From the NCBI GenBank assembly GCA_024642115.1, contig JAHEBU010000005.1, positions 1 to 64,000 of the forward strand: a stretch of DNA of 64,000 nt, read 5' to 3'. Source of the DNA: Marivivens sp. GTDB taxonomy: Bacteria > Pseudomonadota > Alphaproteobacteria > Rhodobacterales > Rhodobacteraceae. Positions 42,200-60,077 of this stretch are shown piece by piece. A program made the position numbers and the translations under genes. The stretch's first letter is position 1, and every line of letters begins with the position of its first letter. Under the pieces are notes generated by a model. That model was not told the DNA's origin, made no database searches, and saw only the letters and a program-made list of their open reading frames with translations.

Positions 42200-42975
42200 G
42201 GCAGATCCCCAAATGGGTTCGCCATGAAGCTGTTCAGCGACTGCGCCCAAACCGACAACAGGATGGGCGAGACGACCAAGAATAGCAAAAGACCACCGGC
42301 CGTAAGAGCCGGAGCGCCGACAAAAGTGACCATCAGCTGCGGCATGGCCCGATTGATCACGCCAAGAGCCACATTGTAGATCAGCGCGGCCAGGACGAAG
42401 GGAGCCGCAAGGGTAAAGGCCAGCGCAAAAGCCCCGCCTATTTCCCCCAATCCGATCTGAGATGCCGTCTGCGCGGAAATCATTTGCCCGGCAGGAACCA
42501 GATCGTAGCTGACGATCATGTAGGCGGCCAACCTGACATGCAGCCCCAGCAGGACAGCCAGCGCCAGCCCGGCAAAGATCAACACATGGCCCATTGCCGG
42601 TTGGGCGTCGACCCCGGCACTCCCACCGAAAATTTGCGAGAGCGAAGTGGATTGCGCAATAATGGTTCCCGCGGTTTCAAGGGCGATCACGAACAGGCGC
42701 AAGACCGCCCCAAAGATCAGGCCGGTCAGGACCTCCCCTCCGAAAATCCCAAGTCCGAGGATACTGTCAGGTGGTACTGGAAGGCTGGACCCGACGGCAG
42801 GAAGAACGATCAATGTGAACCCGATGGCGATCCCCAGTCTGACGCGGACCGGAATGGTTTGTTCCCCAAATGCAGGGGCAAGGGCAAGGATCGCCCCGAT
42901 TCTCACAAACACGATGAAGCCGGCCCAAAGGAAGGCGGTACTGAACGGCAATAGGTTTGCCAGTTCCTCGATCAT
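42196..42975 (-). CDS. fliR: flagellar export gate protein FliR
   Basis: 259 residues with about six helices and the family pattern LPFSTAFLWAGFIVFVRIGAILALAPAFGEQTIPVRVRLGIAIGFTLIVLPAV. It joins FliP and FliQ in the export gate. Its start overlaps the flhA stop and its stop overlaps flhB, giving a coupled flhA-fliR-flhB unit. Confidence 0.95.
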   Translation of the reverse strand: MIEELANLLPFSTAFLWAGFIVFVRIGAILALAPAFGEQTIPVRVRLGIAIGFTLIVLPAVGSSLPVPPDSILGLGIFGGEVLTGLIFGAVLRLFVIALETAGTIIAQSTSLSQIFGGSAGVDAQPAMGHVLIFAGLALAVLLGLHVRLAAYMIVSYDLVPAGQMISAQTASQIGLGEIGGAFALAFTLAAPFVLAALIYNVALGVINRAMPQLMVTFVGAPALTAGGLLLFLVVSPILLSVWAQSLNSFMANPFGDLP

Positions 42976-45065
42976 GCGGCGACCATCCCGACAAGTGACG
43001 GTCGTGCATCGACACCGATCTCTTCGAACGACAGGACAGGATTGGGGATTCCCTTGGCCAACATGACCGTGCGGATGAACCGTCTGCGCCGGGTCGAGGT
43101 CACCACCGCCGCGTAGGTCCCATTGTCGGCCGCCTTGCCCACCTTGTCCGCGATCGCGGTGGCAAGGCGATTGAAATCGTCAGGGGGCAGGGCGACGTCG
43201 CCACCGTTTCCTCGTTCGCCGTTGATCTGATAGGCGGCAAAGATGTCATCCCATTCGGGCGCCAACTGGACCAGTGGAATGGTACCGTCCGTTCGCCGCA
43301 GTTCCGCGACCAGTTGAAAGCCAAGCCTCTGACGGACATGTTCCGTGATCGCCTCGGCCGTCTGATAAACCTGTCTCCCCTCTGCCGTCGCCTCGAGGAT
43401 CAGCGGCAGATTTCGGATTGACACCCGCTCTTCCAGGAGCAGGCGCAACACCGACAGCAACAGATCCACTGGGACCTTTTCAGGGATAAGTTCGTCCAGC
43501 ATCTTGCGATTAGCAGCAGTTCGGGTCGCGTCTGTCAGGTTGACCATCTCGTCAAGAATGCGCCGGAGGGCCTTGAGCGTCAGCAATCGTGGAAAATTGC
43601 GTTTCATCACTTCCAAAAGATGCGTAGCCAACACCTCGGTTGGCAGTACGGTCGTCAGCCCGCTTAGGGCGGCGGTCTCCTGGTCGGCGGGATCAATCCA
43701 GCGGGCGGGGGCTCCATAGACGGGCTCCCTGACGTCTTCGCCAGAAAGATCCTGCGTCATTGGCCCCGAAATCAGCGTCAGGACCCGGCCCGGACGCAGA
43801 GTCTCGCGCACCTGCTCCACGCCCTGAACCTTAATCAGATATTGGCCGGGCAAAAGCGATGCGTTGTCGGTCAATCGGATCTCGGGCAGGACGACGCCAT
43901 AGGTCGTGGCCACATGAGTTCGCATGTTGGATATCCGCGCATCCAGCCCCGTCCCCGGATCAAGCACCATGTCCACGAGGTCGGGCGCAAATTCCAGATG
44001 CACATCGTCCAGATCCAATAGGTCACCCATAGAGGCGCGCACCGGAGCCTGATCTTTTGTCGCCTTGGGCGCGGCGGCCTTGTCAGCCGCTGCCTGATTC
44101 TTGCGTGCCACGAGGATCGCGCAGCCCCCCAAGACCAAAGCACCAACCACGAACGGTACGAATGGCAGTCCCGGGACAAGGGCGAACAATGCCATGAGAA
44201 CTGCGACCGTCGCCAATGCCGCCGGATGCCGCCCCAATTGCGCAACGATGGCCAGGTCAGTTGCGCCGGTCGCCCCGCCGCGCGCCAGCAAAAGGGCGGA
44301 TGCGATCGAGATGATGACCGCGGGGATCTGACTGACCAATCCGTCGCCGACGGTCAGAATGGCGTATGTTTCAAAGGCCTGCCCGATCGGCATGCCATGA
44401 AGAACCACCCCCATGACCAACCCCATGACAAGGTTCAGGCCAGTGATCAACAGGCCCGCCACAGCGTCGCCCTTGACGAACTTGGATGCCCCGTCCAGCG
44501 ATCCGAAAAACGTTGTCTCGGCCTGTTCGATTTCGCGCCGCCGCTTGGCTTCGGCGTGATCGATGGCTCCAGCGCTCATGTCTGCATCAATGGCAAGCTG
44601 CTTGCCGGGCATCCCGTCAAGCGCGAACCGCGCGCCCACTTCGGCCATTCGGGTCGCACCTTTGTTGATGACCACAAAGTTGACGATCAGCAGAACGCAG
44701 AATACGACGATCCCCAACAACACCGATCCGCCCATGACGAACATGGCGAACCCTTCGATGACGTCCCCGGCGGCGTTGGTGCCGGTGTGCCCCTGTCCGA
44801 TGATCAGTTTGGTCGAAGACACGTTTAGCGATAGTCGCAGCATCAGCGACGCAAGCAGGACCGTGGGAAAGGCCGAGAAATCCAGTGGACGTTCGATAAA
44901 GAGCGTGACCGTGAACATCAGGATCGCCAAAGCGAAAGATGCGGCCAGACCGATATCCAGGACCCAGGACGGCATGGGTAGTACCATCATGACGATCACC
45001 GCCATGAGAGCCAGAGCCAGCAGGATGGTCGGCTGAAAAATGGTCTGCAAAGTCATTTTCGGCAT
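42972..45065 (-). CDS. flhA: flagellar export gate protein FlhA
   Basis: 697 residues, full length. Eight helices in the first half include the FHIPEP-family signature region LLLARGGATGATDLAIVAQLG and the preceding AIDADMSAGAIDHAEAKRRREIEQAETTFFGSLDGASKFVKGDAVAG. The second half is the nonameric cytoplasmic substrate-docking domain (about 330-697). It channels proton motive force to export. A second ATG at codon 4 is possible. Confidence 0.96.
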   Translation of the reverse strand: MPKMTLQTIFQPTILLALALMAVIVMMVLPMPSWVLDIGLAASFALAILMFTVTLFIERPLDFSAFPTVLLASLMLRLSLNVSSTKLIIGQGHTGTNAAGDVIEGFAMFVMGGSVLLGIVVFCVLLIVNFVVINKGATRMAEVGARFALDGMPGKQLAIDADMSAGAIDHAEAKRRREIEQAETTFFGSLDGASKFVKGDAVAGLLITGLNLVMGLVMGVVLHGMPIGQAFETYAILTVGDGLVSQIPAVIISIASALLLARGGATGATDLAIVAQLGRHPAALATVAVLMALFALVPGLPFVPFVVGALVLGGCAILVARKNQAAADKAAAPKATKDQAPVRASMGDLLDLDDVHLEFAPDLVDMVLDPGTGLDARISNMRTHVATTYGVVLPEIRLTDNASLLPGQYLIKVQGVEQVRETLRPGRVLTLISGPMTQDLSGEDVREPVYGAPARWIDPADQETAALSGLTTVLPTEVLATHLLEVMKRNFPRLLTLKALRRILDEMVNLTDATRTAANRKMLDELIPEKVPVDLLLSVLRLLLEERVSIRNLPLILEATAEGRQVYQTAEAITEHVRQRLGFQLVAELRRTDGTIPLVQLAPEWDDIFAAYQINGERGNGGDVALPPDDFNRLATAIADKVGKAADNGTYAAVVTSTRRRRFIRTVMLAKGIPNPVLSFEEIGVDARPSLVGMVAA

Positions 45066-45068
45066 ATT

Positions 45069-45767
45069 TCAGCTCCCCCCGAGCGGAACGAGAGAACCAA
45101 GCTGCCGTCCGCCCGACGACTGTTGCAGCAGGGGAAAGCTGTTGACCCGCGGCGTTCGCGCTGTCGCGGGTTCACGATCTGCCGCCGCCACGATAACACC
45201 CTCATCGGCCCCGGCATTGACCGCTGCGGTTCGCAGGGTATCGAATCTGTCCCGGTACCGGCTGGCGAATTCTTCAGTCCGGGAGTGGTACGCGCCGGCG
45301 GCCAGCGTCCAGTCCCCCTTTTCACTGTAAAGTTCGTTGAGGAACCTTGCCGCGTAGAGAGCATTTGCCAGTGGGTCGAACATTTGGTCCAGCGACGCGA
45401 ACTGGTCGGAATGCCAGCGATAGTTGATTTGAAAACACCCCACGTCAAAGCTGACGGCATTGGCGTTCAGGCTAGTCTGAGCAAATTCCATCGCTTCTTG
45501 ACGGGTTTCGAACCAGTGTCCGGCACCTTCAAGATTGATTGTCCACGGCCATGGTTCCAATCGACCTCCACGCCCGCGTCCGGTTTCGGCCTGGGTGATC
45601 GCAATCATGACCGACGCCGGGACACCCGATTGTGCCGCCGCCTGTCGCGCTGCCGTCAGACACAGATCCGCAGGCAGCGACTGCGCGCCCGTAGCCAGCC
45701 AGATCACCCAGAGTCCTAGCGAGATGTGGCCAAGCCAAGAGGCCCCGGCGCGGTGCGTGCGGTTCAT
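45069..45767 (-). CDS. flagellum-linked lytic transglycosylase (SLT fold)
   Basis: 232 residues. A signal peptide or anchor (about 12-32) precedes an SLT-type domain with catalytic E61 in AITQAETGRG and the downstream FDVGCFQINYRWH and AARFLNELYSEKGDWTLAAGAYHS motifs. In Rhodobacter sphaeroides the flagellar muramidase SltF opens the cell wall for the rod and works with a FlgJ lacking its own muramidase; the same division appears here. Only three bases separate it from flhA. Confidence 0.82.
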   Translation of the reverse strand: MNRTHRAGASWLGHISLGLWVIWLATGAQSLPADLCLTAARQAAAQSGVPASVMIAITQAETGRGRGGRLEPWPWTINLEGAGHWFETRQEAMEFAQTSLNANAVSFDVGCFQINYRWHSDQFASLDQMFDPLANALYAARFLNELYSEKGDWTLAAGAYHSRTEEFASRYRDRFDTLRTAAVNAGADEGVIVAAADREPATARTPRVNSFPLLQQSSGGRQLGSLVPLGGS

Positions 45768-45847: not shown

Positions 45848-48151
45848 TTACAGCCCCCCGGCTGTAGCGGTCGGATCAGGCGACACGACGAACCGGTTCA
45901 AAAGGTCATTGATCATGTTGGAACTGTTGTCCGCTGCAGCAAGTGCGGCTTCGCTTGCGCTCAGGCTTGGTTCGGCGGCGGGGGAGGAAGGGGCCGCAAT
46001 CATCGCATCTGCGACACTTCGCAACAGTGGATCTTCGGATGTCGCCAAGGTCGACCAGGACCCCTCACGCCAGGCCTGGTCGACCGATGCCCCAGCAGCG
46101 TCGGCGCTCGCAGCGGGCTGATCTGACAATCCCATCGTGGATGACGTAGCGGCACGCCGAAGCCTGTCGGCCCGAGGGTCGGTGAGTCCCGCAATCGCGG
46201 CCAGAGCGGCGTCGGGCTGGCCCGACGCCAAGGCGGCTTCCGCCCTCAGATAACGACGTTCACCCATGGCTTCGCCTTGCGCCTCACCCGATAGCAGACT
46301 TGCTGCCTGTTCGGGAAAACCGAGCCCAAGAAGCCGGGCCGCGACCAGATTTTCCTCTTCGGCAGGAAGGGAAAATGGAAACCCGCCCAGTGCATATCGA
46401 AGAAAGGTCGGATCGTCGCCGTTCCTGCGGATGTCACCGACGATGTCAGCGTGAAGCGTGGCCTGGGTTTCCGGCGCCAAGGCATTGGCTGGATTTTGGA
46501 CCAGTTCCAGCGCAGGAGCGAAATTGCCTGACTGCGACAAAAGCCGCGCCTCGGCGGCCGCCAGCCTGCCCTTTGCCGGATCATCGCGATATTCGAACCG
46601 CAGACTTTGCGACAGAAGCAGCAGGTCAGGCGTTATCGAGCGGTGTTCGTCGAGCGCCAGTTCAAAAAGTTTGGCTAGCGCCTCGGGGGTCATGCGTGGA
46701 TCGTCTTTGGCCATTCCTGCGAGCTCGGTGATTGCAGTTGCCTGATCACCCTGTTCGACCGCAACGTCGGCAATTGCCAGCTTTGCCTCTGGCGGGATTT
46801 CCGTCACCTTCGGATCGGAGGCACCGAGCACCTGCCGAGCGGCTTCGGGCTGGCCCGCTGCGATCAGGGATTGTGCGAGCATTGGACCAAGATAGGTCCG
46901 CAAATCGTCGGGAAGCGCAGAATAGGCTTGGCGAACCGCATCGGTGTTGATCGGGCGGCCACCGGTTTCGCCCCGTTCCGCCAGCAACGCCCAAAGGGCC
47001 ACTGCCCCATCGCACGACAGGTGATTGCGCAAGACATGAACCGGATCCGCGTCCCCTTCCATCACTGCGCCGATGACCGACAGGACATCGCGTTCCCTCG
47101 ACCGGCGGCCATCAAGTTCAAGCGCCTGTCGCGCTTCGCGCCCGAACCCGAAATATAGGTACGTCTTGGCCAGCTCTTCGATGGCCCCTTCTGGCATGAG
47201 GTCAAATTCGCCCGTCAGTCGTGCCCGACGATCTGCGATCTGGGTCGAGAAATCGCGGTCATCGCCCCAGGAGTTTATGGCAAAGTCGGTATCGGGAAGA
47301 CAGGCAAGCCCCTCCGGATTCACATTGCTTGGCGTTGCAACAGCGCGGGGTCGGTCGCGGTCGATACTGGTTTGAACTGTAAATCCTGTGACAGAACCCA
47401 ATGGATCCGCCTGAAGGGCAGTAGGAAGTGGAGAAGGAGCGGTCGGCTGCATCGCTTCGCCAGAATGGGCCTCGTTCGGCGTCGGGGATGGAACAGTCGT
47501 GCCAACGGCTGGCGCGGAGGACGGTTCTGTTGCAAGTTCCAGTAAACCCTGAGAGCCCGCACGGCCCAGACTCTCGATGATTCCGGCAGCGATTGCATCA
47601 ATCCGTTCTTGCCGTTCGGCGGCTTTGACTGTCGCGCTGGGGAGTTCGGCAGGGAGTGGTTGAGCTGTCTCGCCGTCGATCCGATCGGTTTGTCCGGTGG
47701 GCGGATCAAAGACGAGCGGCAGGACAGAACCGGCGGGCACGATCGGCGCCGCCGGTGTAGTGGGTTCGCTCAGCCTTGCTTCGAACCGGGGGGCGTCACC
47801 GGGGCCGTCCACGATGTCGATGACTAACCTGTCACGTTGAAACAGGAAGGCCTGAGCGTGACAATCGCATGTGACCGCCAGCATCAGGTCGGAGGGTGCA
47901 ATTTGCCGGATGGCCTGCAAACGATCCTTTGGAATCCTGTCGAACACTCCGGTCAGGTCGATGGGCGGCCAGACCGGATCAAGACGCAGGATATATCCCC
48001 CATCCGTGCGGCCAAGCGTCCAGTCCGTCGCGGGGGCGATCGGTATGACAAGTCGTGTAAAAGTGGGATGCTCGCCGCTGCGCACCGTCGATTGGGCTAT
48101 TGCCCCGGTTGACACAAAACACAGAACGGCCGCCAAGATCAGACGAGTCAT
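45848..48151 (-). CDS. large periplasmic helical-repeat protein of unknown function
   Basis: 767 residues. A signal peptide (1-19, ...GAIAQS) precedes a beta-rich N-terminal domain (about 20-115, HPTFTRLVIPIAPATDWTLGRTDGGYILRL) that recalls AMIN-type peptidoglycan-binding domains and includes a CDC pair. A long Pro/Ala/Thr-rich linker (about 115-285) leads to a helical repeat region (about 290-740) resembling degenerate TPRs. Its start overlaps the motA stop, and the muramidase and flhA follow, so it belongs to the motor/export operon. Rhizobial MotC is a periplasmic motor protein in a similar place, but no sequence relation is evident to me. Confidence 0.6.
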   Translation of the reverse strand: MTRLILAAVLCFVSTGAIAQSTVRSGEHPTFTRLVIPIAPATDWTLGRTDGGYILRLDPVWPPIDLTGVFDRIPKDRLQAIRQIAPSDLMLAVTCDCHAQAFLFQRDRLVIDIVDGPGDAPRFEARLSEPTTPAAPIVPAGSVLPLVFDPPTGQTDRIDGETAQPLPAELPSATVKAAERQERIDAIAAGIIESLGRAGSQGLLELATEPSSAPAVGTTVPSPTPNEAHSGEAMQPTAPSPLPTALQADPLGSVTGFTVQTSIDRDRPRAVATPSNVNPEGLACLPDTDFAINSWGDDRDFSTQIADRRARLTGEFDLMPEGAIEELAKTYLYFGFGREARQALELDGRRSRERDVLSVIGAVMEGDADPVHVLRNHLSCDGAVALWALLAERGETGGRPINTDAVRQAYSALPDDLRTYLGPMLAQSLIAAGQPEAARQVLGASDPKVTEIPPEAKLAIADVAVEQGDQATAITELAGMAKDDPRMTPEALAKLFELALDEHRSITPDLLLLSQSLRFEYRDDPAKGRLAAAEARLLSQSGNFAPALELVQNPANALAPETQATLHADIVGDIRRNGDDPTFLRYALGGFPFSLPAEEENLVAARLLGLGFPEQAASLLSGEAQGEAMGERRYLRAEAALASGQPDAALAAIAGLTDPRADRLRRAATSSTMGLSDQPAASADAAGASVDQAWREGSWSTLATSEDPLLRSVADAMIAAPSSPAAEPSLSASEAALAAADNSSNMINDLLNRFVVSPDPTATAGGL

Positions 48152-49017
48152 GCCGCCTCCTGCTTGAGCGCCTTGAGCGACTCTTCAAGCTCACTGAAAC
48201 TTGGCCGATTATGACCCGGCGTGTTCTGTCGACCGACCTCGATGCAGATGTTGGGGGAATGTTGGTACAGGCTGGCGACCAGCACTTCGCGGATCAGTTT
48301 GTAGAAATGCGAATCCTCGGTCAGCACGGCGGTCAGCTTTGCTGCGAACGGACCGACCAGCCCGTAGGCCATGAAAACCCCCATGAAAGTACCCACCAGT
48401 GCAGAGCCGATCATCGCCCCCAGAATTTCAGGTGGCTGGTCGATCGAGCCCATCGTCTTGATCACGCCCAGAACGGCGGCGACAATACCCAGTGCGGGCA
48501 GGCCGTCGGCGACAGACTGCAAGGCATGGGTGGAATGCATCGCATGGTGATGTGTCGCCTCGATCCGTTTTTCCAGAACCTCCTCGACCTGGTGAGGGTC
48601 GTCATAGTTCATGGAAGCGGACCGAAAGGTGTCGCAAATCAGCGCGACAGCTTCGGCATCTTTGGAGATCTTTGCATACTTGCCAAAGATCGACGAACTG
48701 TCAGGCGCCTCGATGTGTTCTTCGAGGGCGACTGGATTTGCCCGCGCTATTCGAATCAACTCATAGAGCAGGCACAACAGGTCCTTGTAGTCGGCGTGTT
48801 TCCATTTGGGGCCTTTGAATACCTTGCCAACGTCCTTGAGCGTATGCTTGACCGAGGCGAAGTCGTTGGACAACACAAAGGCCCCGGCGGCGGCGCCACC
48901 GATCATGATCATCTCGAAAGGGAGGGCCTCCAGGATGATCCCGATTTCGCCCCCGTGGATCATGTATCCACCAAAGACCATGACAAAGATCATCGCGATG
49001 CCGACAAAGCCGATCAT
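48148..49017 (-). CDS. motA: flagellar motor stator protein MotA
   Basis: 289 residues with four helices: FVGIAMIFVMVFGGYMIHGGEIGIILEALPFEMIMIGGAAAGAFVLSND at the N-terminus, a cytoplasmic loop with the conserved charged segment (EKRIEATHHHAMHS), then GLPALGIVAAVLGVIKTMGSIDQPPEILGAMIGSALVGTFMGVFMAYGLVGPF. It forms the proton-conducting stator with MotB, encoded 10 kb away at 59217-60077. Confidence 0.95.
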   Translation of the reverse strand: MIGFVGIAMIFVMVFGGYMIHGGEIGIILEALPFEMIMIGGAAAGAFVLSNDFASVKHTLKDVGKVFKGPKWKHADYKDLLCLLYELIRIARANPVALEEHIEAPDSSSIFGKYAKISKDAEAVALICDTFRSASMNYDDPHQVEEVLEKRIEATHHHAMHSTHALQSVADGLPALGIVAAVLGVIKTMGSIDQPPEILGAMIGSALVGTFMGVFMAYGLVGPFAAKLTAVLTEDSHFYKLIREVLVASLYQHSPNICIEVGRQNTPGHNRPSFSELEESLKALKQEAA

Positions 49018-49088: not shown

Positions 49089-49682
49089 TTATTGATTTGG
49101 CACATTCGCGTTCCGGCCTGCGATCACGGCGCTGATCGAATAAGCAGTTTCAGGGGCAAGGCCGGCAAAGATGGCGGCTGCGGCATCCGGTCTCATCCGG
49201 CTTAGAAATCCGGCGGCAAAGTCTGGCTCCATCGTTTCAAACAGGGCCGCTGCATCCTTGGGTTTCATGTTTTCGTAGACGGTGGTCAGTTGGGCGATAT
49301 CGGATTCAGACGCAGTCTGAGCCACCGACAAGGTGGACGCGAGTTGATCGCGGGCTGTTTGCAGGGCCGCAATCCGTTCGGTGATCTGTGTCTCTGCCAC
49401 GCTGAGGGCCTGCATCCGGTCGGCGATCTGGGCCTCCTTTTCGGCGATGCGGGCCTCGCGCGCCTTGAAGGCGTCGAGCATGGCCGCAACCTCTGCGTTA
49501 TCAGGGCAGGCCGCCCCGGAAGCCCCGGTATCGGAGGTGGGGTCCGCCAGCCCGGTCGCAAAGGCCGGCGCAACTTCTCCACCCAGGCGCAGGACCCCGG
49601 ATGCAATCAACAACCCGGCCAGAACATACAGCACTCCCTTGGTCGGCGGCCTGCCAGACGCAGGTTTCTGGCCACGGCTCAT
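49089..49682 (-). CDS. MotE-like protein with MgtE N-terminal-type domain
   Basis: 197 residues. One membrane helix (about 17-35), a coiled coil (about 65-125, REARIAEKEAQIADRMQALSVAETQITERIAALQ) and a C-terminal domain (about 130-190) with the MgtE-N pattern YENMKPKDAAALFETMEPDFAAGFLSRMRPDAAAAIFAGLAPETAYSIS. In Rhizobium MotE is a periplasmic chaperone of MotC. Here it lies just upstream of motA and the 767-residue protein, matching that pairing in context though not in proven sequence. Confidence 0.7.
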   Translation of the reverse strand: MSRGQKPASGRPPTKGVLYVLAGLLIASGVLRLGGEVAPAFATGLADPTSDTGASGAACPDNAEVAAMLDAFKAREARIAEKEAQIADRMQALSVAETQITERIAALQTARDQLASTLSVAQTASESDIAQLTTVYENMKPKDAAALFETMEPDFAAGFLSRMRPDAAAAIFAGLAPETAYSISAVIAGRNANVPNQ

Positions 49683-50029
49683 GCCCGTCCTCCGCCGGTA
49701 TTGCGTGAAAAGAAGGGCGTGGCGGGTTCAGGCCGCGTCGGTTCGCCGGGCAGGTCATGCAAAGAAGCCACCAGCAATTCCAACCTGTTGGCCGCTGCCT
49801 CGGCCCGTTCACTGACCCCGGTCAGGGTAGTGACCGACGACTTTGCGCTGCTTTGGGCTAGCGTGAGGGTCTTGGTCAGGTCGTCAACCTGGGCCGACAG
49901 AACGGCGACCGCGCCGCCTACTCCTTTTTCAAGGTCAGTAAATCGCCGCAGCCTGTTGGACAGGACCAGGCAGTAGAATCCGGCGCCAATCGCGCCCGCG
50001 GCCATGAAGATGTTTGCGATGATATCCAT
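49679..50029 (-). CDS. small membrane-anchored coiled-coil protein, flagellar operon
   Basis: 116 residues. One N-terminal helix (about 3-25, IIANIFMAAGAIGAGFYCLVLSNRL) and a predicted coiled coil (about 35-95), with no family I can name. It sits between fliL and the MotE-like gene, its stop overlapping the latter (ATGA), so it is very likely made with them. Membrane anchoring and coiled coil suggest a motor-associated structural role; this is inference. Confidence 0.6.
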   Translation of the reverse strand: MDIIANIFMAAGAIGAGFYCLVLSNRLRRFTDLEKGVGGAVAVLSAQVDDLTKTLTLAQSSAKSSVTTLTGVSERAEAAANRLELLVASLHDLPGEPTRPEPATPFFSRNTGGGRA

Positions 50030-50041
50030 TTGGGGTCTCCT

Positions 50042-50533
50042 TTAGTCCAACACGAATTCCATGATGAGCAGGTCGTTCACGCGCCCTGCCCCTGTGACCA
50101 CCTGCACACGGCGGAGCATTTGCGATCGCAACCGGACAAGGGCGGTCGGATCTTCTAGGTCGCGGGTCTGTACCGCCCGCAGATAGCCATTGAGTACGTC
50201 GACGACCCGCGGCTTGATCGCCTCGACCTCGGCCGCGTATTCGGGCTGAACCTCGAGCTGGGCGGTAAATCGCAGATGCGTGCTCGAATCCGCGCCGGGC
50301 AATGAAATGATCAGGGGATCAAGCGGAACAAAGGCCACCGGAGGGAGTGATTCGACAGGATGCTCGTCGGTCGCATGTGCCTCTTCGGCGGGGTGGCTGC
50401 CACCGATCAGACCCATCTTGACCGCCATGAAACCGCCGCCACCGCCCAAGAGGGCAAGCACGAGGCCAAGGATCATGGGCAACTTTGAACTTTTCTTGGG
50501 CGGAATTTCCGTGGGGTCGACAGCGGCGGTCAT
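50042..50533 (-). CDS. fliL: flagellar basal body-associated protein FliL
   Basis: 163 residues from ATG 50533, which has GAGGAT eight bases upstream; ATG 50566 would add eleven residues and has poorer support. One membrane helix (about 18-38) is followed by the FliL domain (VAFVPLDPLIISLPG ... VVDVLNGYLRAVQTRDLEDPTALVRLRSQMLRRVQVVTGAGRVNDLLIMEFVLD), which is canonical. It surrounds the stator. It heads the minus-strand operon running to the FliJ-like gene. Confidence 0.88.
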   Translation of the reverse strand: MTAAVDPTEIPPKKSSKLPMILGLVLALLGGGGGFMAVKMGLIGGSHPAEEAHATDEHPVESLPPVAFVPLDPLIISLPGADSSTHLRFTAQLEVQPEYAAEVEAIKPRVVDVLNGYLRAVQTRDLEDPTALVRLRSQMLRRVQVVTGAGRVNDLLIMEFVLD

Positions 50534-50579
50534 GGGTCCATCCTCGATTTTGGATGATCCGGTCATAACCCCAGACCGA

Positions 50580-50594
50580 CTAACCGATTGTTAA
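50580..50594 (-). promoter_or_regulatory. CtrA-like site between fliL and fliF
   Basis: On the minus strand TTAA-N7-TTAG, one mismatch from TTAA-N7-TTAA, placed between the divergent fliL operon and fliF operon. It is the best of the five sites together with that before flgE, and could drive both early flagellar operons. Confidence 0.5.
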
Positions 50595-59205: not shown

Positions 59206-59220
59206 TTAATGTGGCCCTAA
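59206..59220 (-). promoter_or_regulatory. CtrA-like site upstream of flgE
   Basis: On the minus strand TTAG-N7-TTAA, one mismatch from TTAA-N7-TTAA, 59 bases before the flgE start. It overlaps the stop codon of motB. The placement suits a CtrA-activated promoter for the hook operon. Confidence 0.5.
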
Positions 59221-60077
59221 CGGCCGGGGGATTGTGGGCGAGGCTGGTCACTGCGCAGCAGCGTGATCTCGATTCGGTTGTTCCTAACGGCCATCGGGTT
59301 GGTGACGACCAGCTTGCGGTCGGCATATCCAACCACCCGGGCTGTCCGGACGGGGGAAAGGCCACCTGCCACCAGAAGACCACGAATCGCCAGTGCCCGT
59401 TGGGTGGACAAGGGCCAATTGGGATTGTCGCGCACGACCAGCGACCGCGACGCCGTGTGACCGGATACGGCCACCTCGTTCTTAACCACGCCAAATACCT
59501 GTGCCATGACGGCGCTAAGGTCAGTCATCAGCTCGGTCGGGGTCGCAGTGTCAGGCTCGAACAAGGGGGAATCGTCGGTGTCAAAGATTTCGATGATCAG
59601 GCCCTCGTCCGTCAGGCGGGTGATGACGTGGCGTAGCGCCTGGTCGGACAGGATGCTTTCGCCCCCTTTTCCCAGCAGCGTTTCCTCGATGTTCTGCAAG
59701 GCGGCTACTTCGGCGGCCTGGGCGGCCTGCGCCTCTGCCCCTTCGGTGCCAACGGGTTTGTCCAGCCCTTCGACGAGGCGGCTGACGCCTGTCCCGGTCT
59801 GGGTCTGTTCGTTCTGGGAAAAAATCGTGTCGCCGCCGAACATGCCATCACCGCCGCCAGAAACGCGGCTGATCGGCACTTTGGGCGAGAAATAGTCGGC
59901 GATCCCCTTGCGCTGCTGTTCGGTGGTCGCATTCAGCAACCACATGAGCATGAAGAACGCCATCATCGCCGTCACGAAATCGGCATAGGCCACCTTCCAC
60001 GCGCCGCCGTGATGGCCGCCACCTGCAATGATCTTCTTGCGCTTGATGATGATCGGCGCATTCGCATGCACAGCCAT
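59217..60077 (-). CDS. motB: flagellar motor stator protein MotB
   Basis: 286 residues. The single helix carries the essential proton-binding aspartate D33 in AYADFVTAMMAFFMLMWLL. A linker with the plug region leads to an OmpA-type peptidoglycan-binding domain (about 140-275, VAVSGHTAS ... NRIEITLL). It pairs with MotA encoded at 48148-49017. It lies between the glycan operon and flgE on the minus strand. Confidence 0.94.
   Translation of the reverse strand: MAVHANAPIIIKRKKIIAGGGHHGGAWKVAYADFVTAMMAFFMLMWLLNATTEQQRKGIADYFSPKVPISRVSGGGDGMFGGDTIFSQNEQTQTGTGVSRLVEGLDKPVGTEGAEAQAAQAAEVAALQNIEETLLGKGGESILSDQALRHVITRLTDEGLIIEIFDTDDSPLFEPDTATPTELMTDLSAVMAQVFGVVKNEVAVSGHTASRSLVVRDNPNWPLSTQRALAIRGLLVAGGLSPVRTARVVGYADRKLVVTNPMAVRNNRIEITLLRSDQPRPQSPGR

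Follow-up and report, generated by a model that had tools for sequence, protein, structure and literature searches.

In 2024 a study of Cereibacter sphaeroides reported that its Fla2 flagellum cannot rotate without the motor protein MotK (PMC10954123). According to that report, MotK has 652 residues, comprising a signal peptide, an AMIN-like domain at the N terminus and a helical region of TPR-like kind, and its gene belongs to the operon fliL2-pflI-motE-motA2-motK; the gene order fliL-pflI-motE-motA-motK is also described for Paracoccaceae. Mutants in motK or motE make filaments and do not swim. Both products are periplasmic, and MotE binds MotK and MotB2; in far-Western blots MotK itself also binds MotB2, though its binding is weaker than that of MotE. 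Polar localisation of a MotK-sfGFP fusion requires MotA2 and MotB2, and MotE is degraded in the absence of MotK while the converse does not occur (PMC10954123). Here we analyse a window of 64,000 nucleotides from Marivivens sp. (contig JAHEBU010000005.1 of assembly GCA_024642115.1, positions 1 to 64,000) and argue that a gene on its minus strand, at positions 45848-48151, probably encodes the MotK of this bacterium.

A review of 2026 assigns MotE, FlgY and FlbB to the E-ring and treats MotK, MotC, PflA and FlcB as proteins that partner them; it lists the motors of C. sphaeroides and Sinorhizobium meliloti as not yet studied by cryo-tomography and leaves undecided whether MotE is a ring part or a chaperone (PMC13023049). 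Among these partners, Campylobacter PflA has an AMIN-like beta-sandwich, a flexible loop and a TPR solenoid (PMC11870540), a layout resembling that of the window protein, and binds the E-ring protein FlgY (PMC13023049). S. meliloti MotC is a periplasmic TPR partner of MotE required for motor function; MotK is set apart from it, by description, in having an AMIN domain in addition (PMC13023049) and in the place of its gene. In Caulobacter crescentus, the large periplasmic AMIN-like, PflA-like protein CC_2058 adjoins the MotE homologue CC_2059, and its mutant is Mot- (PMC10954123, PMC13023049, PMC11870540). CC_2058 resembles MotK by description, whereas no BLAST similarity between the two was seen in PMC10954123.

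Comparison with the C. sphaeroides motK locus

The window gene is a single uninterrupted open reading frame (ORF) of 767 residues with an ATG start; the plus-strand frame of the same interval is broken by stops. We consider, with a probability of about 0.82, that it is the orthologue of C. sphaeroides MotK and acts in stator-motor coupling as proposed for that protein. The two agree in the order of their operons, in having a signal peptide, an AMIN domain, a disordered linker and an alpha-solenoid, and in being paired with MotE; they differ in length (767 versus 652 residues).

The C. sphaeroides locus (L178) was taken from the genome giving the best cytochrome c1 match among 394 family genomes (G093). 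Its cytochrome c1 is 100% identical over 243 residues to a PDB chain that presumably comes from C. sphaeroides, the next-best genome reaching 83%, and its MotE (185 residues) and MotK (652 residues) have the published lengths. Another genus (g33) was ruled out as Cereibacter, cytochrome c1 matching there in two pieces at 60-76%. Compared pairwise, the window protein and C. sphaeroides MotK are 29% identical over 571 columns (E value 2e-44), and a profile built from 27 window-like proteins, none of them from G093 (profile A1), finds the G093 MotK at an E value of 1.2e-116.

The surrounding genes tell the same story. On the minus strand of the window stand, in order, fliL (50042-50566; Pfam FliL, 8.3e-12), a pflI-like gene of 116 residues (49679-50029), motE (49089-49682; 197 residues, an E-ring candidate; Pfam MgtE_N, 7.7e-7), motA (48148-49017; NCBIfam TIGR03818, 3.8e-108), which overlaps motK by 4 bases, motK itself, an SLT-domain muramidase gene (45069-45767; Pfam SLT, 9e-7) and flhA (42972-45065), followed by fliR and flhB. 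This seven-gene order is identical in the C. sphaeroides locus, where motK likewise precedes SLT, flhA and ORFs at the places of fliR and flhB. Identities to the C. sphaeroides genes, same-place genes in the case of pflI and SLT, are 57% for FliL, 54% for PflI, 42% for MotE, 73% for MotA (against MotA2), 29% for MotK, 51% for SLT and 70% for FlhA. When aligned pairwise the two MotE proteins are 43% identical over 189 positions, and that of the window retains a Cys-Pro aligned with the cysteine through which C. sphaeroides MotE forms a dimer (PMC10954123).

The first-pass annotation had called the protein uncharacterised. Homology and the identical operon place it instead in the family published in 2024 as MotK (PMC10954123); the family and its pairing with MotE have been known since then, and the window protein is a good but ordinary example. 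It seemed unknown because family models fail to cover MotK. In a Pfam and NCBIfam scan of the window protein no family rose above its cut-off, the closest being Pfam TPR_19 (5.3e-5; 23.9 bits against a cut-off of 25). Among 60 MotK members, no NCBIfam family matched more than 2 at an E value of 0.01, and Pfam found TPR_19 in 6 and, weakly, the AMIN-like PF24837 in 6; none of the curated Pfam and NCBIfam models scanned spans the whole of MotK. A protein left unnamed by curated models can thus be named, and likewise its relatives across the order.

Predicted domains and conserved residues

The protein begins with a putative signal peptide (residues about 1-20; 48092-48151), recognised by eye as a hydrophobic helix, at residues 2-16 in the model, with its end near AIAQ-S. 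An AMIN-type beta domain follows (residues about 21-117; 47801-48091), marked by the motif VRSGEHxxFTRLV and by R33, R77 and D112, which are invariant in the 60 MotK sequences. It spans residues 24-115 in the model, and residues 1-125 folded alone with the 60 sequences reached a mean predicted local distance difference test score (pLDDT) of 92.0 and a predicted template-modelling score (pTM) of 0.80. The top Foldseek match of this domain in the PDB is AmiC, the AMIN prototype (4bin; E value 8.4e-4; template-modelling score 0.59 by query length; root-mean-square deviation (rmsd) 3.0). PilQ holds ranks 3 and 5, and small heat-shock folds hold rank 2 and most of the weaker rows. The model thus gives the N-terminal domain an AMIN fold, agreeing with the published C. 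sphaeroides assignment.

The full-length model is less confident (mean pLDDT 79.3, pTM 0.53). Its long linker has pLDDT below 50 across residues 128-172 and most of 204-273; between these stretches the model places a helix at 174-200, and column counts delimit a conserved segment with an ExxLxRAxxQGLL-like pattern at residues 174-204 (47540-47632). A predicted TPR-type alpha-solenoid occupies residues about 284-672 (46136-47302); in the model, where it runs from about 287 to 672, it resembles TPR and PPR superhelices by both Foldseek and VIA-align, the latter aligning it with the TPR region of O-GlcNAc transferase (1w3b; Z 15.5, rmsd 8.6 over 350 residues). All 5 matches with E values up to 1 in a sequence-profile search of the PDB were repeat proteins. 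The model as a whole shows the AMIN - loop - TPR layout of a PflA-type spoke, a likeness that is one of layout only; PflA and PflB were missing from the whole-model structure-match lists, which is uninformative.

The first-pass annotation read the gene well in most respects: the 767-residue ORF (for which it gave no strand), its placement between motA and the muramidase gene, the signal peptide, a possible wall-binding domain, the long linker, the helical repeats and the MotE-like protein upstream all reappear in the analysis, the two folded parts as predicted by the model.

Two pairs of cysteines are conserved. C284 and C380 are kept in all 60 MotK sequences; C95 and C97 go together, 55 sequences having the two and 5 having neither. 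Counted from residue 23 onward, cysteines number four in 55 sequences, two in 4 and three in 1. The periplasm being oxidising, this pairing suggests disulfides, as judged from conservation. After a low-confidence tail, the model ends with a helix at residues 730-753, within a conserved segment (residues 728-755; 45887-45970) of family pattern P-x-L...R-x-x-L...S...R...L-L. Its mean conservation is 1.45 bits, as compared with 1.00 for the preceding tail, 0.91 for the end that follows, 1.26 for the solenoid and 1.85 for the AMIN domain. P728 is found in 56 of the 60 sequences. Position 744 is R in 52 of them and position 740 is S in 45; the window protein itself has S and A, respectively, at these two positions. 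Docking peptides usually look like this, a conserved helix at the C terminus that is flexibly tethered, and this helix may be one. Neither the cysteine pairs nor the C-terminal helix was found in the passages on MotK consulted; no search was aimed at these features themselves.

Distribution in the Rhodobacterales

The order was searched with the single window sequence in 390 genomes, its own included, a match being an E value of 1e-3 or better. MotK was matched in 274 genomes and the FlhA family in 331: 270 genomes had both, 4 had MotK only, 61 had FlhA only and 55 had neither (Fisher p 2.3e-29, uncorrected for relatedness). With matches in 274 of 390 genomes, the ORF is not a product of chance. 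In three of the four genomes with MotK alone (G248, G376 and G081), motK adjoins motA and FlhA went undetected; the fourth, G317 (E value 9.5e-4), was not confirmed by the profile and was set aside as a chance match. G049 (E value 2.4e-4) was likewise put down to chance, neither motA nor motE being found at its locus (L050). A profile re-scan covered the 61 genomes with FlhA alone, leaving aside the 55 of 116 MotK-negative genomes that also lack FlhA, and recovered 6 more (G052, G109, G159, G172, G201 and G365); a seventh hit was G049, put down to chance as above. The largest searches scored no more than two candidates from each genome, which can leave absences undercounted, and the ORF caller used for loci sometimes chooses long antisense frames.

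At the loci fetched from the order, motA and flhA adjoin motK in 30 of 30, that of the window included. Just before motA stands motE in 26; in the remaining 4 the fetched sequence stopped short of that position. An SLT gene was recognised next to motK in 10 of the 30, and flhA is the gene that follows in the others. Among 39 loci chosen by hand from 80 named ones listed, 28 genomes had a MotK match and 11 had none; the matches include Rhodobacter capsulatus, R. viridis, Shimia marina and Celeribacter persicus, as well as Aliiruegeria lutimaris, which holds broken pieces of motK only. C. sphaeroides was not among the matches listed. We also drew a quick tree of MotK, in which many forks are weak and on which no conclusion rests.

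In two of the genomes recovered by the profile, G159 and G365 (loci L044, L057, L049 and L058), motK is no longer intact: stops interrupt it in the one, and in the other it is split into two short frames. The FlhA matches of these genomes (8.0e-98 and 1.2e-93) are far weaker than usual. A broken motK together with a weak FlhA match is what would be expected if MotK serves the flagellum only.

A search of plasmids gave a single match, on pD4M1D of Paroceanicella profunda. The flagellar cluster there (L309) contains fliL, two hypothetical genes and motA, and a 2.65-kb gene annotated as a hypothetical protein overlaps motA in the place of motK.

Homologues elsewhere in the Alphaproteobacteria

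The authors of the C. sphaeroides study reported no similarity between MotK and the proteins found at the same place in Caulobacteraceae (PMC10954123). A profile of 60 sequences (A2) matched 148 of 385 genomes of the class at an E value of 1e-3 or better, 4 of them in the window's own family. Forty class loci were picked by hand for inspection, 20 from the 26 best outside the family and 20 of lower rank, chosen mostly for long ORFs; matches on short ORFs, some of them perhaps AMIN amidases, lie outside this set. In all 20 of the best loci the fetched 14-20 kb contained flagellar genes, and the ORFs measured 750-1354 residues; of the lower-ranked 20, 13 belonged to flagellar clusters and had their match borne out by the ORF. 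Overall, 33 of the 40 were flagellar, 5 were not and 2 were unconfirmed on the ORF (L238, in a flagellar cluster, and L233). Of 74 class genomes sampled systematically, 23 carried FlhA together with a match, 4 had just a match, 17 had just FlhA and 30 had neither one (Fisher p 7e-5, uncorrected for relatedness).

Since A2 matches lie in other loci of the class, the family, as far as profile similarity can tell, reaches outside the Rhodobacterales, and its weakest matches are not all flagellar. The first-pass annotation had tied its flagellar reading to homologues not being widespread outside flagellar clusters or present in non-motile species. In the order, the association with motA and flhA (30 of 30 loci) and with FlhA (270 of 274 genomes) bears this out; in the class it does so for 33 of the 40 loci and fails for 5, and 4 of the 27 sampled genomes with a match lack FlhA. 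On these counts the flagellar reading stands, with the proviso that the weakest distant matches include non-flagellar loci.

The five loci of the latter kind (L229, L243, L244, L247 and L248) carry ORFs of 922-1020 residues with no flagellar gene nearby, in genomes that have FlhA; their neighbours include a tRNA synthetase, a deaminase, TolB and phosphofructokinase. Several of the large class ORFs gave a tandem double match to the AMIN part. A motB-like gene, recognised by weak matches in 2 of the cases, comes directly before the homologue in 11 of the first 20 class loci. At L213, two tandem MotB_plug genes (L213:11039-11812 and L213:10239-11039) immediately precede the MotK-like gene; in Pfam the first of them matches the plug only weakly and OmpA not at all. 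BLAST finds MotB-like gene pairs resembling these in further class loci.

Discussion

We obtained the gene, its homology and operon, its predicted domains and its tie to one flagellar type. That the window protein acts as C. sphaeroides MotK does is what we infer from this kinship. Once exported to the periplasm, MotK would sit on peptidoglycan through its AMIN domain. Its TPR solenoid would bind dimeric MotE, which probably forms an E-ring around the MS-ring, and MotK would also touch the periplasmic part of MotB; by these contacts the MotA/MotB stators might be recruited to the motor, held there or opened. One could envision MotK as a strut, anchored in the wall, that joins the MotE ring to MotB and has the form of a PflA-type spoke. 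The binding and mutant data from C. sphaeroides, the PflA layout and the grouping of MotK with E-ring partners all lead to this picture.

A number of observations weigh against the assignment or against parts of it. The function of the window protein is argued by analogy with experiments in C. sphaeroides, and binding of peptidoglycan by its AMIN domain is a prediction. Pairwise similarity to C. sphaeroides MotK is limited to residues 1-566, the remainder aligning only in the family alignment, and the TPR/PPR matches of the modelled solenoid, mostly to eukaryotic or designed proteins, are generic. After the profile re-scan, 55 of the 331 FlhA-bearing genomes of the order are still without MotK; 41 of these 55 have MotE, as compared with 1, weakly, of 25 genomes lacking both FlhA and MotK. 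Part of this concerns a second flagellar type of the Rhodobacterales, with FlhA 38-41% identical to that of the window where recovered: in 19 clusters of about 20 kb, hand-picked from the listed FlhA places (L249-L259 and L261-L268), MotK was found in none and MotE in 8, and the same scan found an SLT gene in 15. Eight of the 19 sit in genomes that carry MotK elsewhere; a twentieth cluster (L260, on a 13.9-kb contig) proved to be of the window's type. Finally, one genus (g7) keeps MotE and MotA, and MotK was undetected in all 25 of the FlhA-bearing genomes drawn from it. MotK is thus dispensable for some MotE motors.

In the 18 loci fetched from genus g7, flhA comes after motE and motA, and no motK or SLT gene was detected between motA and flhA; fliL was detected in 15 and pflI in 16. 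The gap between motA and flhA measures 253-325 bp in 16 of the 18 and holds an ORF of about 85-105 residues, often starting on the motA stop (L289-L304, L307 and L308). Its product has a signal-like start, judged by eye, and is putatively secreted; its consensus is LPRDYRxxLMxMxPADRxxAxxYLRRxGLLT. A profile of 15 of these proteins matches all 18 loci, 15 by construction, with a fragment only at L298 and an unclear start at L290, and matches nothing outside the genus among the 309 sequences searched; three members scanned gave no Pfam match. No support was found for regarding the small protein as a reduced form of MotK or of SLT (hhalign probability 0.9% and 0.2%, respectively). At L297, an extra stretch of more than 1 kb lies between motA and the small gene.

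These data bear on what MotK might do other than act on the stators. It may mainly stabilise or scaffold MotE, rotation being lost through loss of MotE. The one-way degradation of MotE in C. sphaeroides speaks for this (PMC10954123), as does the position of motE just before motA in 26 of the 30 loci. However, localisation of MotK-sfGFP depends on MotA2 and MotB2, and MotK binds MotB2 (PMC10954123); moreover, MotE persists without detected MotK in 25 of 25 flagellate g7 genomes and so need not depend on MotK everywhere. We regard a mainly stabilising role as rather unlikely. Another role, suggested by the SLT gene that comes next in both the window and C. sphaeroides, would be that of an AMIN-type regulator of this muramidase, opening the wall for insertion of the rod or the stators. 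The absence of any detected motK or SLT between motA and flhA in the 18 g7 loci would fit such a partnership, but SLT is detected beside motK in only 10 of the 30 order loci and occurs without MotK in 15 of the 19 second-type clusters. Furthermore, the C. sphaeroides motK mutant still builds filaments (PMC10954123), so the wall is passed in its absence. This role appears most improbable.

The window protein could also be a direct orthologue of rhizobial MotC, and the first-pass annotation had proposed, as one option, a counterpart of the MotC/MotE pair. Both proteins are periplasmic, TPR-rich and paired with MotE, and the 2026 review calls them structural homologues, distant ones, arguing from structure (PMC13023049). 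Nevertheless, C. sphaeroides is described as lacking a MotC homologue, and motE of the Rhizobiaceae is located between flgI and flgH (PMC10954123). Direct orthology is therefore distinctly unlikely; of the proposed counterpart, the pairing with MotE survives, with MotK rather than MotC as the partner (PMC10954123).

The preferred reading, a MotK that couples stators to the motor, can be extended. What goes beyond the 2024 description is the class-wide profile similarity, the cysteine pairs, the C-terminal helix and the genus without detected MotK, with its small protein in the place of motK. It is tempting to speculate, with somewhat less than even confidence, that MotK is one Alphaproteobacterial family, the PflA-type spoke of the class, with conserved cysteine pairs and a docking helix, and replaceable by the g7 protein. 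If this were so, the C-terminal helix on its flexible tail would dock on MotE or MotB, and genus g7 would have lost the whole motK-SLT stretch, its small protein perhaps taking over the job of MotK. The family profile, the candidate docking helix, the cysteine pairs and the genus without detected MotK offer handles on the question of whether MotE is a ring part or a chaperone.

Other features of the window

The expected stator partner, motB, lies apart from the operon on the same strand (59217-60077; MotB_plug 1.8e-19, OmpA 7.1e-8). In the divergent fliL/fliF promoter, the sequence CTAACCGATTGTTAA (50580-50594) is a CtrA-type double half-site with one mismatch. A CtrA site is also reported upstream of C. 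sphaeroides fliL2 (PMC10954123). One-mismatch sites of this type number 6 in the window against 2.52 expected, a count reached in 4 of 100 shuffles.

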